64,000 bases of DNA, from the IMG/VR virus record IMGVR_UViG_3300029945_000001, positions 62,001 to 126,000 of that record; one strand, written 5' to 3'. The notes beneath the pieces are model-generated. The model ran no database searches and had not been told where the DNA came from. It worked only from the letters and a program-made list of their open reading frames with translations. Positions 50,565 through 63,966 of this stretch are shown in pieces (within the stretch, counting starts at the first letter, position 1; every line of letters starts with the position of its first letter). Both the position numbers and the translations under genes were made by a program. This DNA is from a virus.

Positions 50565-50617
50565 TTTATTGACTTAAAGGTATTAATTTACCTATATCCT
50601 TTCTAGGAGATCGGATC

Positions 50618-51346
50618 ATGTTGAAGATTATCATGAGCGTGATGGTCGCCATTACGTTAAGTGCTTGCGCTGCTCAGCAAGAGTCGCCCAAGACTGTCAA
50701 GCAGGAAAAGTCTGAGGAAGTCATTCAGGCTATGCCTGATTGGGTTAAGAACCCTCCGACGGGTGAAGGTTATGTGTTCGGTATCGGAAGTGGCGTCTCT
50801 GCTATTTCCAGCTATGCTCGGGAACGAGCTATTCACGATGCCATCTTGGATCTTGCTCGTCAGCAGGATTCTGAGATGACCTCGAAACAGCGTGAGTATA
50901 TTTCCGAAACCGGAGACGAAACACACCGCAAAGCAAACTCGACATCCGATCGTGCATCGACAATGACCATCAAGCGGATGGTCGGAGCTTTCTCAGTCAT
51001 TAAGACTGAGTTCTATTCGATGCCGAATGGAAACTTCAAGGTATATGCTCTTGTCAAGTGCGAACTTGGCAACGGCGATACCGTCGATACCAACAAAGCT
51101 GCTACTGATACAGTGACTGAACAGAAGGCCAAGGAGGCACATCAAAATGAAGATCCTGACGCGTCGAAACAACCGGAAAATGATCCGCCTGCTGCGCAGC
51201 CTCAAGTATCTAGTGACGATAGTCCCGATACTGGTCATCTTGTTCCTCATAAAAATAAGTACCAGGTCATCTCTGGTCCTGTGAACAACGAACCGCCACC
51301 TCCTGTGGCAGATCCACTTCCTCCCGTGAAGCGATTGGCCCTTTAG
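50618..51346 (+). CDS. LPP20-family outer membrane lipoprotein
   Basis: 242 residues. A lipoprotein signal peptide ends at lipobox 'LSAC' (Cys17). The mature part has an LPP20-like domain ('PDWVKNPPTGEGYVFGIGSG', then Ala-rich helix 'RERAIHDAILDLARQQ') and a long disordered, Pro/Gln/Asp-rich tail. Lipoproteins of this type sit in the Gram-negative envelope. In a phage it may alter the host surface, for example against superinfection. It is 32 bp before a second exported protein. GC-rich codons suggest host origin or high expression. Confidence 0.8.
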   Translation: MLKIIMSVMVAITLSACAAQQESPKTVKQEKSEEVIQAMPDWVKNPPTGEGYVFGIGSGVSAISSYARERAIHDAILDLARQQDSEMTSKQREYISETGDETHRKANSTSDRASTMTIKRMVGAFSVIKTEFYSMPNGNFKVYALVKCELGNGDTVDTNKAATDTVTEQKAKEAHQNEDPDASKQPENDPPAAQPQVSSDDSPDTGHLVPHKNKYQVISGPVNNEPPPPVADPLPPVKRLAL

Positions 51347-51378
51347 ATCTGATCAGATGGTCAGAGAAGGAGTAAATC

Positions 51379-52170
51379 ATGCGTGTATTACTATCTCTGA
51401 TCCTTATGATCGCCTGTGGTTCTGCAATGGCCGAGACACAGTATACCACCGAGAATGGTACTTATACTCTCGGTGACAATGACACCAAAGCGCAGGCCCA
51501 AAAAGCCTGCATCGAAAATGCCAAACAGTCGGCTATAGAAAAGGCCGGTGTATTCGTGAATTCGAATTTTCAAGATCGGAAACACGAAGGAGAAGAAGGA
51601 TACAAAGAATCATCTTCTGTGTCTCTGAGCTCTATTTCTGCTGGTATTGTTTTGGCAGAAGTTCAAAGCCAGTCTATGATGATCGAACCATCGGGTCATC
51701 AGGTTACGAACTGTGTAGTTCGTGTCGGAATTGATCCCGAAGAGATCAAAAAAGCATCTACTACTGCTTCTGTTAATACAGATCAGTTGAAGAAGCTGAA
51801 TGAAGAAGTTGCTGCTCTGAAGATGCAAATCGCAGAGCAGCAAAAGAAACAAGCTGACAATCAGGTACCTTCCAATGTTTCTCAGAACACTCAGACTACG
51901 GCCGTTAGTGTTCCTCGGATCGTTGACGAGGATAAGGTTGTTTACACATATAGTCCCGCACCGCCTCAGGTTGTGTATGCGCCCCCTCCAGGATATGTGG
52001 AACGACAGACTTATACCTTACAGCCCCCTCCTCCCGTTCGTCATCAGGAGAGAGTCTTCTATATTCATCCTCAGACGGTACCGTATGGCTATTATCAGAC
52101 GGTACCGTATGGCTATTACCAGCGGAGTGTTTCTTATGGTGGATGGGGTGGAGCTAGGAGGTTTCATTAA
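51379..52170 (+). CDS. Exported periplasmic protein with coiled coil and Pro-rich tail
   Basis: 263 residues: Sec signal peptide (cleavage likely after 'GSAMA', residue 18), an N-terminal domain like LPP20/FlgT N-termini ('AQKACIENAKQSAIEKAGVF'), a coiled coil (about 130-155, 'TDQLKKLNEEVAALKMQIAE') and a Pro/Tyr-rich tail with an 8-residue tandem repeat 'QTVPYGYY' twice. Start after 'agaaggagtaaatc'. Same unit as the lipoprotein, so the pair may form an envelope complex. Confidence 0.75.
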   Translation: MRVLLSLILMIACGSAMAETQYTTENGTYTLGDNDTKAQAQKACIENAKQSAIEKAGVFVNSNFQDRKHEGEEGYKESSSVSLSSISAGIVLAEVQSQSMMIEPSGHQVTNCVVRVGIDPEEIKKASTTASVNTDQLKKLNEEVAALKMQIAEQQKKQADNQVPSNVSQNTQTTAVSVPRIVDEDKVVYTYSPAPPQVVYAPPPGYVERQTYTLQPPPPVRHQERVFYIHPQTVPYGYYQTVPYGYYQRSVSYGGWGGARRFH

Positions 52171-59707: not shown

Positions 59708-60031
59708 ATGATTGAAAAAAATATGGACGTCACCGATATCAATGGTGCTAAAAAGAACATCAGCGATCTGAAGGTCTTTGGTAATGGCGATACCTTCCAA
59801 CTTATCTGCAAAGCTAGTTCCCAGGAACAGGGTTGGATGAAGTCGACCAAAGCTATGGAAATCGTTGGTGTTGGCTGTGTTGTCCAGGTGACAACGCAAC
59901 AGCGCAGTCCTGACGGATCGTATGCTGTGGCAGAAGCCGTGACTTTTGTTCCAGGAACAAAGATCATCGGTGATGCTATCAATGGTCGTCGGATCGTTAT
60001 TTTCAATTACAATGATACCGATATCGAATAA
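59708..60031 (+). CDS. Hypothetical beta-rich protein with GC-rich codon use
   Basis: 107 residues; start after 'atggagtcgaaaa'. Beta-rich with 'DVTDINGAKKNISDLKVFGN' and a Gly/Val core. Codons resemble phuZ and 16333, suggesting strong expression. It is the last protein gene before the tRNA and structured RNA block. No family recognised. Confidence 0.7.
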   Translation: MIEKNMDVTDINGAKKNISDLKVFGNGDTFQLICKASSQEQGWMKSTKAMEIVGVGCVVQVTTQQRSPDGSYAVAEAVTFVPGTKIIGDAINGRRIVIFNYNDTDIE

Positions 60032-60057: not shown

Positions 60058-60147
60058 GGATGGGTGGCCGAGTGGTTTAAGGCAACGGTCTTGAAAACCG
60101 TCGTAGGTGTGAGCTTACCGTGGGTTCGAATCCCACCCCATCCGCCA
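60058..60147 (+). tRNA. tRNA-Ser (UGA)
   Basis: 90 nt with encoded CCA. Acceptor ggatggg/cccatcc, anticodon stem acggt/accgt with loop cttgaaa (anticodon TGA), long variable arm, T-arm tggg-ttcgaat-ccca. Reads UCA and other UCN codons, suited to AT-rich codon use. Confidence 0.95.
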
Positions 60148-60178
60148 TGTTAAATAAGTTTCAAAATATTTATACATA

Positions 60179-60186
60179 TATATTAA
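60179..60186 (+). promoter_or_regulatory. TATATTAA promoter element of the RNA block
   Basis: acatatatattaatttatt, 33 bases before the first long-range stem at 60219. Confidence 0.6.
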
Positions 60187-60199
60187 TTTATTGGAACCT

Positions 60200-61640
60200 G
60201 ATCATAAAAAGTTAAACTACAGTTGAATTTCACAGTGTAGCAACCTTCTGCTCTGATCCGCACCGCCCCGCTGTGATCCGTTCTCCAGGAAAATGAGTGT
60301 CCTTTCTCATTTTAGTGTATTAGTCAACTGTGGGCTCTCGACCAAGGTGATGAAAATCATCTAAACCTGGGTATATGTTGAGAGTATAATTAAGATAGTG
60401 TTGTGACGAAGGTAACATCCGCGCCCTTCGCGTCAGGACGGCTAACCACATGCAGGTCAGTGTGCTAGCACAACACCGTAACATCTGCCACTAACATGCA
60501 ATCCGGCGACTATCAGTTTTCGAAGCATGTTTTAAAAGTCCTGATAATGCAGATGTATAGCAAATATCAAGTCGACTTGTAGAAATACAACATTCTGGTC
60601 AAGGTGCATGGAATTAACGGACCTAAACACCTTGTTGCGTCGGTTGACTTGAGAGTTCTCGTGTGGAGTTGTTGTCAATGCCGTGTCCTGGTCCTTGGAG
60701 GGGATGACGCCGTAGAAGATACCAATATGGAATACCGGAATATTCCCACATGAGCACGCTTTGTTTTCATGAGTTTTCTTTCTTTGTCCAAGTTACTGAA
60801 GATGATCTATAGCCATAGATCGAAACCTAGTTACGACGATGGTCTAACAGGCAGGACAAAGTACTGACCAGGTGTGCTGGCGCTGATATTATGCGACGTT
60901 TTATCGTTGCTGTAGATGCTGGCATATCGAAGATGTTTGTTGTGGTAAACACGCCGTTGAGATCAGCTATAGATGATCGATGATGTGGCGGTGTGCAATG
61001 AGATGATCATACGATTCCCAAGAAGGGAACTGTGATTATCTATGACTTATACACGACAGTGATCCATATGTGATCCATTGTGTGTTTGTTCTTTACATTG
61101 TTAATACCACGACGAACGTAATAACTGTGTGTTGTCTGGATAAGGGTCATGTATCCCGCAATCTGGTATCGCACTAACTCTGGTAGATATACAGTTGAGA
61201 CCGTGTCTCTAAATCTACAAGTGAGCATGTGTCTGGTGGGTTTGGGCTGAAAAAATGCCATCTGATCCACCAGACACATCTCGCGAAACCTCTTAAGTGG
61301 CGATACCGTTAGACTGAGACCCAGCTTGCTGACTAGCATTTTGTGCAGTTGGCTATGCGCGATTTATTTCGGGCATCTTCTGGCAGATATGTCGTTCTCC
61401 ACGAACCCTCCAGATCAGAGGACTTGCTCAAGATTGGTATCGTAGAGCAGGTAACTAATTTGTCCTGTAAACTATGTGATGTCGGAAAAGTCAGATCCGA
61501 TGATCTGATCAACATCATACTATCGGATGTAATGCCCCCATGGATGTTAATAGCATTTGCATTATGAGATCGGCAGATATACACATCTGATAGGAGTCGT
61601 ACCCCACACGATGAGCTCTGTGGAATCCAGAGCATCTGCA
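60200..61640 (+). ncRNA. Candidate large structured non-coding RNA region 1
   Basis: About 1.4 kb without a plausible gene and clearly less AT-rich than coding DNA. Closing stems, one after another: 60219-60226 with 60324-60331 (acagttga), 60335-60342 with 60377-60384, 60398-60405 with 60469-60476 (gtgttgtg), 60481-60488 with 60549-60556, 60567-60576 with 60643-60652 (one G-T), 60658-60666 with 60746-60754 (one G-T), 60782-60789 with 60854-60861, and a 12-bp stem 61228-61239 with 61267-61278. Several enclose further hairpins, one with a GAAA tetraloop near 60582. Placement beside tRNAs is like GOLLD or ROOL RNAs of phages, but identity cannot be claimed. Confidence 0.65.
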
Positions 61641-61641
61641 A

Positions 61642-61730
61642 GCGCGTATGGCGAAGCTGGCTGAAACGCATCAGACTTAAAATCTGACACATAAGAAACA
61701 CCGTGGGTTCGATCCCCACTACGCGCACCA
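61642..61730 (+). tRNA. tRNA-Leu (UAA)
   Basis: 89 nt with encoded CCA. Acceptor gcgcgta/tacgcgc, anticodon stem tcaga/tctga with loop cttaaaa (anticodon TAA), long variable arm, T-arm with ttcgatc loop. Reads UUA, a dominant Leu codon here. Confidence 0.95.
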
Positions 61731-61734
61731 TGAG

Positions 61735-61760
61735 GGGGTGTAAGTTATAACTTACACCCC
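61735..61760. terminator. Perfect palindrome between tRNAs
   Basis: ggggtgtaagtta joined to its complement, 5 bases after tRNA-Leu. Terminator or processing site. Confidence 0.7.
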
Positions 61761-61789
61761 TCCACCAACAATTTTCGATGACATACAAT

Positions 61790-61865
61790 GAGCACGTAAC
61801 TCAGTTGGTAGAGTACTCGACTTTTAATCGAGATGTCATGGGTTCGAGCCCCATCATGCTCACCA
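61790..61865 (+). tRNA. tRNA-Lys (UUU)
   Basis: 76 nt with CCA. Acceptor gagcacg/catgctc with one C-A mismatch, D-arm actc...gagt, anticodon stem ctcga/tcgag with loop cttttaa (TTT), T-arm atggg-ttcgagc-cccat. Confidence 0.93.
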
Positions 61866-61938
61866 TTTTTTTAAAACAAGAGACGAGCTTATCTATGTCT
61901 TCTTTTAGATATTGATAAACTCATGTTATAAAGGAAAT

Positions 61939-62014
61939 GGACGCGTAGCACAGCGGTTAGTGCCGACCGCTCATAACGGTCTGGTCGTAGGTTCGAATCC
62001 TACCGCGTCCACCA
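61939..62014 (+). tRNA. tRNA with CAU anticodon (Met, or Ile2 if modified)
   Basis: 76 nt with CCA. Acceptor ggacgcg/cgcgtcc, anticodon stem gaccg/cggtc with loop ctcataa (CAT), T-arm gtagg-ttcgaat-cctac. An elongator Met or a lysidine-type Ile tRNA cannot be told apart by sequence alone. Confidence 0.93.
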
Positions 62015-63180
62015 ACCTTTTTCCATAACGGTCTAGTTGGAAGTTCAGATCTCTCCGTACTGTAATAGGTAACCTCAGGAGATATAAGCATGACCAGATC
62101 ATGCAGGTTCGTTCTTCATAGATTGAACTTCTAAGACCACATCTGAGGTGCAATGCCTCGGCAGAGATAGCTATGTCATGTAGCATAAGTAAAAAAAACA
62201 CCAACGATGAAGTTGTACTCTCTAAAGAGTTAATGAACATGTTCAGACATCTTAGGTGAACATTTACACCTTCAAAAAGATGGTAGCAACAGTATGGGTG
62301 AGAACAAAGCCATCATGCTGGATATCTGGTAACAGTGTCCAGACCCATGTGCCCCCAAGAAACCATTGCGCTACGAGGATCTAGTGGAATTGATGCCATG
62401 CTTCGCATGCGCACAGGTTATAATAACCACATTGTCCTTATCTGAACATTTTTATTGACTCTCTCGGAGAAAACCCTCGTTTGTTGAAATGTTTATCACA
62501 AAGCTGTTATGACTCAATGACATAACAGTTTACCGCTTAAGGTTAACCATCTATCCCTCATCACCGTAGTACGCCTAGGAGTTGTCCTATGTGGTCCAAA
62601 ATGATGAATGATGAGCGGTGGCGAACAGCCGGGTTTGGAGACTGTGTGATATGGCCTCCTAACTGGGCTCTGTTGTTCTTTCATGCATTGACACCCAGTG
62701 TATCGAGAGAATATCGGTCCGTCTCGAACGGACAACTTTCCTGCTTTAGATCGTATGTTTTGGCATATGTCTTAATCCGCACCGGTCCGGCCGATGTATG
62801 GATATGGGCGTAACTCGTCAACGATCTGCTAACAGGCTGAAGAACATGGAAGGTATACCAGGACTACGATCGCCGGCTCTAACTTAAGTCATCTGGAGTC
62901 ACTCAGGGACTATCCTGCGGTGAACATACGATGAGAGTTATCTTGGGATCATTTCCGTATACACACAACTGCTGTGTCCATAAGTGTTCTGTGTCTGAAA
63001 GCAAGGCATGAAGTGATTTTGTCACCGCCAACCCGCTATGTGGGAGATCCGTGAAAAGGTCTCCCACTACGGTTTCTTTAGTGTAGATTAAGGTGAACAC
63101 CGAACACGGAATGGGCCTCCGCGCAACACAATCCCCCGATGTTGCTATGTTCGGTGTTCTCCTTAGTTTATACATATTAA
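62015..63180 (+). ncRNA. Candidate large structured non-coding RNA region 2
   Basis: About 1.1 kb without genes. It opens with a partial echo of the preceding tRNA (cataacggtct at 62026). An outer pairing ggtct...gaagttca with tgaacttc...agacc closes about 62031-62140. Further hairpins: ctgttatg with cataacag (62500 region), gtccgt with acggac (62720 region), gtgggaga with tctcccac (63040-63070). It ends with a 12-bp stem 63095-63106 with 63148-63159 (gaacaccgaaca), extendable by taagg/cctta. Dense local pairing and balanced base composition in an AT-rich genome support RNA function. Confidence 0.6.
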
Positions 63181-63222
63181 ATTCTTCAGGCAGCTGCTTA
63201 TTTTTTATTTCAAAGATAAATA

Positions 63223-63230
63223 TATATTAA
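63223..63230 (+). promoter_or_regulatory. TATATTAA promoter element
   Basis: gataaatatatattaatac, 13 bases before the tRNA-like gene at 63243. Confidence 0.6.
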
Positions 63231-63242
63231 TACATTGAATTC

Positions 63243-63322
63243 GCCGCAGTATCTCCTTGGCCTTCTAAGCTATTGAAAGAGTAACTGGACACATGGGGGT
63301 TCGAATCCCTCCTGCGGCGCCA
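63243..63322 (+). tRNA. Aberrant tRNA-like gene, probably Arg (UCU)
   Basis: 80 nt with CCA. Acceptor gccgcag/ctgcggc is perfect and the T-arm ggggg-ttcgaat-ccctc is good. An anticodon-like loop cttctaa (TCT) sits on a 4-bp stem (tggc/gcta). Only 7 bases remain where the D-arm should be and about 21 lie between anticodon and T-arms. Either a D-armless tRNA or a rearranged pseudogene. Confidence 0.5.
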
Positions 63323-63389
63323 ATCATTTAAAATATTCTAATCCGGGATCGTCGGTCTGAGTCTGACCTGGAGACCACTAAGATACCAT

Positions 63390-63438
63390 ATATCTTCTAA
63401 GCGGCAGGTCGTAGGTTCGAGTCCTACTGGGATCGCTA
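63390..63438 (+). pseudogene. 3' half of a tRNA-Arg (UCU)-like gene
   Basis: Has anticodon loop cttctaa, variable bases, T-arm gtagg-ttcgagt-cctac and 3' acceptor tgggatcg, but ends cta instead of cca and no complementary 5' acceptor is seen upstream. A direct repeat gggatcg at 63345 and 63429 flanks it. Confidence 0.6.
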
Positions 63439-63872
63439 AGCTGCCATACATCTTCTTCAGTTTCGGGTCCTTCTGAGTAAGGCATTTGAGTATGCACACC
63501 GATCCATGAAAGTGGGGACAGTGTATCGGTTCTTTTAAAAGTTTTGGCTCCGTTAACTGAGTCTGGACTGCTCACCGGCATGTATGTGTCAGTGTTGTCG
63601 GAAAAGCATACAAATGCATTAATGGTTAGAGGGTGTCCATCTTCGGATCGGCATTTTGGCCATAGTCGCTAGAAATCAGTGAAACGGGCTGGTCTCGGGA
63701 TAAATTGTAAGTCTGACGACCGAGATAAGATTAATGACTTACCAAAGTCCTGGTGTGTTAAAAAACTTATGGTGATGTAACCAGGGATGCGAACTATGTT
63801 TGCCATCGGACGCCAAGCGATCGATGAAACCATTCTAAATTCCACTTAACTTTTAGGTCGATGTTATCGGGC
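63439..63872 (+). ncRNA. Candidate structured non-coding region 3
   Basis: About 430 bases with no plausible gene, base composition like regions 1 and 2. It includes short inverted pairs such as ctcggga/tctcggt-type matches around 63695-63725 but I could not build a full fold by eye. It ends at terminator 63873-63909. Confidence 0.4.
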
Positions 63873-63909
63873 TGTCACATGCATGGACGTAATGTCCATG
63901 TATGTGACA
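63873..63909. terminator. Rho-independent-type terminator
   Basis: 16-bp stem tgtcacatgcatggac (one wobble) with a 5-nt loop, then gttcatttattttttaa. It ends the RNA block. Confidence 0.85.
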
Positions 63910-63958
63910 AGTTCATTTATTTTTTAATACATTTTGAGTTTTATACAAAAAATAAATA

Positions 63959-63966
63959 TATATTAC
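63959..63966 (+). promoter_or_regulatory. TATATTAC promoter element
   Basis: aataaatatatattacttat, 26 bases before the start codon at 63993. Confidence 0.75.

Follow-up and report, generated by a model that had tools for sequence, protein, structure and literature searches.

The question raised by this locus is what occupies a gene-free tract of about 3.3 kb that lies between and after tRNA genes in a phiKZ-like jumbo phage. The DNA analysed here, referred to as the window, is 64,000 nt long and comprises bases 62001-126000 of a 208 kb IMG/VR virus record (IMGVR_UViG_3300029945_000001). A sequence-only reading had proposed structured non-coding RNA throughout the three gene-free segments of the tract (S1, S2 and S3), either as a divergent GOLLD or ROOL or as a new class, possibly an array of small modules. 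The idea of a new class in the tRNA cluster holds for one module in S3, at 63693-63833, which shows covariation and has wide homologues; it is not established for the rest of the tract. This module, a twin pseudoknot, almost certainly represents a real family of structured RNA.

A covarying RNA core in segment 3

When S3 was searched against 50,697 phage records, it matched a region between genes in Pseudomonas phage phiHQ (83% over 65 nt, E 4e-9). Compensatory changes were first seen here, with CCTGG...CCAGG in the window and CCCAG...CTGGG in phiHQ. Further members were collected by IMG/VR pattern scans on the shared letters and, for phage Psa21, by BLAST with members. A covariance model, R1, was built from seven sequences; its match in the window spans 63702-63785 (95.2 bits). 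The core and its helices, all on the + strand, are as follows.

63693-63833, + strand: twin-pseudoknot RNA core (R1 match, helix coordinates, covariation)
63693-63698/63720-63725, + strand: helix SA (covariation)
63707-63713/63736-63742, + strand: helix P1 (covariation)
63749-63754/63780-63785, + strand: helix P2 (covariation)
63769-63773/63829-63833, + strand: helix P3 (covariation)

The helix order is SA-P1-SA'-P1'-P2-P3-P2'-P3'. SA crosses P1 and P2 crosses P3, and the fold therefore consists of two consecutive H-type pseudoknots. The conserved unit measures about 94-160 nt across members, and the window core has a 43-nt stretch between P2' and P3'.

For P1 and P2 in the seven untouched cores, 94.4% of cells are paired and 9 of 13 pairs are changed on both sides (0/500 shuffles), with a covariation score of 0.63 vs 0.17 in shuffles. 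Pairing falls to about 40% when the partner is slid by one column. For all four helices in 12 sequences, 93.9% of cells are paired (0/500 shuffles as good), double-changed cells number 63 vs 18.1 +/- 3.6 in shuffles (0/500), and the covariation score is 0.62 vs 0.20 (0/500). P3 alone is paired in 95% of cells in these sequences, with three pairs changed on both sides. Extra pair types in the 12-sequence alignment are not above shuffles (92/500). This alignment has insertions trimmed between SA and P1 and between P2' and P3' (phiHQ, Psa21, L257, L352 and the window); two unpaired letters were cut from the window row and one before P3 from the L244 row, and there the count leans towards structure. 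A separate covariation count with strands picked by eye gives the same picture, biased by that picking. The covariation anticipated for homologues is found in the S3 core, where the four helices stand above shuffles; for S1 and S2 no homologues were found.

Several single-stranded motifs are near-invariant: AATT; GTC-TGAC; TTAATGAC; AAAG; TGTGTTAnAAACYTT; and GRTGnAA. Single-stranded letters (GTCTGAC, AATGAC, AAAG, TGT.TTA.AAAC.TT, GRTG.AA) are conserved more strongly than the helices, the usual mark of a binding or catalytic surface, which these loops may form.

Members of the family and their surroundings

Besides the window and identical copies, R1 members comprise 16 loci: two Pseudomonas phages, phiHQ and Psa21, plus 14 contigs from IMG/VR that are mostly tRNA arrays. 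The model recovers all of the members. Eleven loci, the window among them, give full-length matches of 70-95 bits, with E about 7e-15 to 3e-10 for well-conserved members; Psa21 scores 82.6 bits. More divergent members, with 31-47 bits, are L363/G027, L246, L361, L356/L357/L359 and L358. A single copy is found per locus in members, and one only in the pieces of the window phage that were searched; with the segments also mutually dissimilar, an array of small modules in the sense of repeats is not supported.

R1 matches none of the 93 decoy loci that a loose DNA pattern had selected. Plasmids gave no match to the family, and GTDB genomes gave pattern matches only (24 bits or less), the best one read seeming to sit in coding DNA; these and L216 were rejected as members, being chance matches in coding DNA or near-noise scores. 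With filters strict enough to lose weak members, R1 has no match in phiKZ, 201phi2-1, Noxifer, LucasX, Eowyn and FLC9, nor in T4, KVP40, phage G, XacN1, S-SM2, Aswh_1 and Kikimora.

The window phage has no close relative in GenBank. Relatives of its SNF2-type helicase number about 200, in phiKZ-like jumbo phages and others, at up to about 35% identity, and the nearest metagenomic relative is 45% identical; on these identities the phage is placed in the phiKZ-like group, but as a lineage of its own. The helicase piece is recognisable in 1 of the 15 other member contigs (several are fragments), and the family therefore appears to be spread over clearly different phages. The nearest helicase relatives, G001 and G002, have no good tRNA (one sub-threshold match in G001) and no comparable GC-rich tract.

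In members with tRNAs nearby, all tRNAs are on the strand of the RNA, with up to 18 tRNAs per locus. In L362 the RNA sits between tRNA-Ile, which ends 2 nt upstream, and tRNA-Lys, which begins 8 nt downstream; the gap between these tRNAs is 114 nt, and thus the complete RNA there cannot exceed 114 nt. It is found 4 nt before tRNA-Leu in L348, 5 nt after tRNA-Met in L289, 8 nt after tRNA-Asn in L352 and 8 nt before tRNA-Gln in L246, and some members are 100-1300 nt from any tRNA. The identity of the neighbouring tRNA differs in every member array. A fold supported by covariation recurs, on the tRNA strand, in the tRNA arrays of clearly different large phages.

Homing endonucleases are the only protein genes common to member arrays, barring phiHQ-Psa21 synteny and one helicase-domain match. 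Related GIY-YIG/NUMOD3 homing endonucleases are present in three RNA-bearing tRNA arrays (L360 171-896, L361 12355-13038 and L358 6586-7305). In the related phage G027, a tmRNA gene (L363 5658-6027, - strand) lies near tRNAs and the divergent family member. PSA21_57 of Psa21 (L374 3908-4150), annotated as a hypothetical protein on the opposite strand, overlaps the RNA and is probably a mis-annotation.

The tRNA tract of the window phage

The observations of the sequence-only reading are confirmed in part. Four intact tRNAs (Ser, Leu, Lys and Met) are called by ARAGORN around segments without convincing open reading frames (ORFs), and these segments are less AT-rich than the genome, with a GC content of 0.42-0.47 vs about 0.31 genome-wide. 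However, GC-rich coding islands also exist in the same genome, so the higher GC is not special to the RNA. The features of the tract are listed in order.

60058-60147, + strand: tRNA-Ser (TGA) (ARAGORN; Rfam 63.3 bits)
60178-60186, + strand: early-promoter-like element ATATATTAA of unit 1, TATATTAA at 60179 (motif count; phiKZ/OBP consensus)
60187-61641, + strand: S1, non-coding (no convincing ORFs)
61642-61730, + strand: tRNA-Leu (TAA) (ARAGORN)
61790-61865, + strand: tRNA-Lys (TTT) (ARAGORN)
61939-62014, + strand: tRNA-Met (CAT) (ARAGORN)
62015-63175, + strand: S2, non-coding (long hairpin 63081-63172 at end)
63222-63230, + strand: early-promoter-like element ATATATTAA of unit 2, TATATTAA at 63223 (motif count)
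63243-63319, + strand: degenerate tRNA-like element 1 (Rfam tRNA 29.2 bits, at the 29-bit cut-off)
63344-63437, + strand: degenerate tRNA-like element 2 (Rfam tRNA 24.7 bits at 63382-63435, below cut-off)
63438-63912, + strand: S3, non-coding (no convincing ORFs)
63873-63909, + strand: intrinsic-terminator-like hairpin, 17 bp, with T-rich tail (ends S3)
63958-63966, + strand: early-promoter-like element ATATATTAC of the next protein gene, TATATTAC at 63959 (motif count)

Within the window, the TATATTA-type motif ATATATTA has 31 occurrences on the + strand, 20 of them outside ORFs, and two on the - strand. It agrees with the published promoters of phiKZ (TATATTAC) and OBP/N1M2 (KATATTATY) (PMC7058600), and AT-rich motifs in phiKZ-like phages are early promoters of the virion RNA polymerase (PMC7598289). 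As for a phiKZ-type early promoter, an AT-rich TATATTAC-like element, with its final C replaceable by A or T, is found upstream of the unit.

From these elements, the tract looks like two early units. Unit 1 would run from the promoter at 60179 through S1, tRNA-Leu, tRNA-Lys, tRNA-Met and S2, and unit 2 from the promoter at 63223 through the two tRNA-like elements and S3 to the terminator at 63873-63909. S1 and S2 (2.6 kb) are probably transcribed with the tRNAs. The earlier picture of such an element before each segment and a strong hairpin after it is therefore partly correct: the elements at 60179 and 63223 and the hairpins closing S2 (63081-63172) and S3 are present, but S2 has no promoter element of its own, and S1 has no terminator and continues directly into tRNA-Leu.

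The tRNA-like element at 63243-63319 has an acceptor GCCGCAG...CTGCGGC and a good T arm, by eye has no ordinary anticodon arm, and is not called by ARAGORN. This element and that at 63344-63437, both with good T arms, open unit 2 and recall the T-arm-like end of T4 rnaC, GGGTTCGAATCCC. Between tRNA-Leu and tRNA-Lys, at 61734-61763, is a near-perfect inverted repeat, GGGGTGTAAGTTATAACTTACACCCC, perhaps a processing hairpin. The gene directly after the RNA unit, running from window 63994 to L005:289, has an early-promoter-like element of its own and encodes a HigA/XRE-like antidote protein (Pfam dnstrm_HI1420). Just before tRNA-Ser, a gene at 59708-60031, richer in GC than its surroundings and probably a recent import, encodes a 107-aa protein with relatives of 57-72% identity in hundreds of other viral contigs and no Pfam or PHROG match. 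It was rejected as a partner of the RNA, being a widespread phage protein without evident RNA link.

Folding of whole segments on the + strand gives z values of -5.9 (S1), -8.7 (S2) and -3.4 (S3) against shuffles, the - strand being weaker. Nine 1.2-kb coding controls from the same genome give +1.1, -0.1, -1.1, -1.1, -1.7, -2.2, -3.5, -3.8 and -7.3. The argument that strong folding energy proves a structured RNA was rejected, as these controls reach z -7.3; a coding stretch at window 50600-51800 (LPP20-like weak match) has this z, unusually strong for coding DNA. The claim of stems beyond chance is upheld for some parts and not for others. The 3' half of S1 (z -6.2) and S2 (z -8.1 without its terminal hairpin, beyond every coding control tested) are near or beyond the end of the control range and are moderately more structured than chance. 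The 5' half of S1 (z -1.1) and the first 250 nt of S3, before the core (z -1.0), are ordinary. The S3 core is structured beyond chance through covariation, not energy.

S1 and S2 have only noise as homologues at any useful E-value in the 50,697 phage records, and no mutual resemblance was found among S1, S2 and S3. Structured RNA of more than 3 kb is thus weakly supported and not established, with S1 and S2 folding barely beyond the GC-rich coding controls. For S1 and S2 alone, a credible though not favoured alternative is that they are non-functional spacer or decayed tRNA-array DNA that folds well from composition and hairpin remnants. This would suit the missing homologues, the GC-rich coding controls down to z -7.3 and the decayed tRNA-like elements in the same array. 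However, S2 without its terminal hairpin exceeds all controls, and 2.6 kb of useless DNA is rarely kept by phages. Identical copies of the tract in three other records (L002-L004, close helicase relatives) are probably the same phage; they provide no covariation and bear neither way on the function of S1 and S2.

Long gene-free tracts near tRNAs in L090, L097, L099 and FLC9 appear structured in places, with the family found only in L099/G027. In Burkholderia phage FLC9 (L012 3620-4140 and 4400-5410, - strand), tRNA-Phe is followed by a non-coding, well-folding stretch of about 500 nt (z -6.4), and several odd, apparently interrupted tRNA-like elements lie between true tRNAs; these are not of the twin-pseudoknot family. 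Gene-free well-folding stretches in relatives (L071 17783-18180, + strand; L097 4073-4470, - strand; L115 16296-16695; L090 8808-9600, - strand), with z down to -8.7, are candidate further RNAs, some perhaps single strong hairpins.

Proposed role and relation to known RNAs

The core at 63693-63833 is read here as belonging to a family of small stable phage RNAs, not previously catalogued, that acts in trans (probability roughly 0.6). The RNA would be transcribed early, together with the tRNA-like elements, by the phiKZ-type virion RNA polymerase, a view supported by the early-promoter-like element and terminator that unit 2 has of its own. When RNase P and 3' enzymes process tRNA ends, any RNA lying between the tRNAs is set free, and pseudoknotted RNA resists exonucleases; the family RNA is probably released by the tRNA-end-cutting enzymes and would then persist as a compact stable molecule. 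Its action in trans would most likely consist of showing its invariant loops to a partner that is conserved and shared by many hosts, candidates being the translation or tRNA machinery, or an RNA-binding protein. A more specific proposal, made tentatively and at somewhat less than even odds, is an undescribed RNA class of large phages, a twin pseudoknot of about 100 nt spread with tRNA arrays among clearly different lineages and doing a general job for phage translation in a manner unlike that of any known RNA. Examples would be the protection, processing or charging of the phage's tRNAs, or an effect on the host ribosome.

Several points weigh against a stable trans-acting RNA of tRNA arrays. 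The nearest full tRNA is 1.7 kb upstream of the window core, with only degenerate tRNA-like elements close. The tRNA link is not universal, as the phiHQ and Psa21 members lie away from tRNAs, immediately upstream of a gene for an RNA polymerase subunit. No partner gene recurs near the RNA except homing endonucleases. The family is sparse (phiKZ, 201phi2-1 and FLC9 are without R1 match), and a search of 50 records (helicase relatives and L289) gave members only in G027, another sample of the window phage and L289 itself. Finally, action in trans is something we infer.

The distances to tRNAs bear on an unlikely alternative, in which the RNA is a cis-acting element of polycistronic tRNA transcripts, either a self-cleaving ribozyme or a processing or antitermination element for the tRNA precursor. 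In several arrays only 2-8 nt separate the RNA from a tRNA end, and its strand is always that of the tRNAs; theta ribozymes abutting phage tRNA 3' ends are a precedent (PMC10879173), and ribozymes, like binding sites, typically have conserved unpaired bases. However, a position directly after, directly before, or 100-1300 nt from a tRNA gives no fixed cleavage geometry, the phiHQ and Psa21 members have no tRNAs nearby, there is one copy per locus rather than per tRNA, and two consecutive H-type pseudoknots are unlike the nested HDV/theta topology. The same two Pseudomonas phages suggest instead a riboswitch- or attenuator-like leader of the downstream gene, since in both the RNA precedes the same RNA polymerase subunit gene (72% product identity, PHROG 2987), and in phiHQ it is followed by a G+C-rich, terminator-like hairpin with a T run. 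Such a leader is improbable: the gene that follows in the window is served by a separate early-promoter-like element (63958-63966) after the terminator, which suggests that the RNA is not its leader, and in arrays the RNA is usually followed by a further tRNA, whose identity varies.

An equally improbable alternative is that S3, or S1, S2 and S3 together, form a GOLLD/ROOL-like giant ornate RNA, perhaps cage-forming, with the twin pseudoknot as a conserved domain. A long gene-free tract beside tRNAs, the folding of S2 and of the 3' half of S1 better than shuffles, and the occurrence of GOLLD and ROOL near tRNA islands (PMC12286853) would fit. However, the complete L362 unit must fit into 114 nt between two tRNAs, no Rfam match was found, folding of the 250 nt ahead of the core does not exceed that of shuffles, and homologues have only the core in common, not the rest of S3 and nothing of S1 or S2.

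The purpose of phage tRNA arrays, and the function of the non-coding RNAs that accompany them (GOLLD, ROOL, T4 rnaC/rnaD), are long-standing open questions. Because the twin-pseudoknot RNA is small, with invariant loops and a fold backed by covariation, and occurs in phiHQ and Psa21, two cultivated Pseudomonas phages, it is directly open to synthesis, probing, pull-down and deletion.

Known families were compared with Rfam 15 covariance models at gathering and permissive thresholds. The check proposed for GOLLD, ROOL and OLE gave no match in the tract, where only tRNAs and sub-threshold noise appear at E<=5-10, nor in the L289 and L362 members at that threshold, nor in the window or seven member loci at gathering score. 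Plastid-ycf2 and similar sub-threshold matches are tRNA antisense artefacts. The suggestion of a divergent GOLLD or ROOL is thus not borne out, either in the tract and three members (permissive) or in the seven member loci (gathering). No earlier description of the family was found in the open-access literature and Rfam 15.

The loose kind to which the RNA belongs, structured RNA in a phage tRNA cluster, is already known from GOLLD, ROOL, T4 rnaC/rnaD and theta ribozymes. T4 rnaC and rnaD (species 1 and 2 stable RNAs) are likewise small RNAs in a phage tRNA cluster (139 and 119 nt), but identity with them was rejected, as R1 matches nothing in the T4 record, nor in its tRNA region when filters are switched off, and the conserved motifs are missing from their sequences. 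HDV topology is a nested double pseudoknot (P1, P1.1, P2, P3, P4). Theta ribozymes, which are small pseudoknotted RNAs abutting phage tRNA genes with a minimal 56-nt HDV-like fold (PMC10879173), resemble the family in size, pseudoknotting and tRNA neighbourhood. They differ from its covarying helix order, in which one H-type pseudoknot follows the other, and from its single copy and variable position relative to tRNAs; a theta/HDV-like topology was rejected. The ncRNAs found in phiKZ by Grad-seq are small RNAs of a related jumbo phage, but they come from a 3' UTR and a 5' UTR, have two stems and measure about 100 and 180 nt (PMC8545117), and phiKZ has no R1 match. GOLLD is non-coding, phage- or prophage-encoded and often near tRNA islands, sometimes with tRNAs inside (PMC12286853); the window RNA is also a non-coding RNA beside phage tRNAs, a likeness common to many RNAs. 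Many GOLLD RNAs exceed 800 nt and have a conserved 3' domain, whereas the family unit is 94-160 nt and fits the 114-nt gap of L362. ROOL is similarly phage-encoded, often near tRNA islands and with pseudoknots, but measures about 660 nt in the solved example (PMC12286853) and has another architecture. Judged by sequence, size and predicted topology, the twin-pseudoknot family matches none of GOLLD, ROOL, T4 rnaC/rnaD and theta ribozymes.

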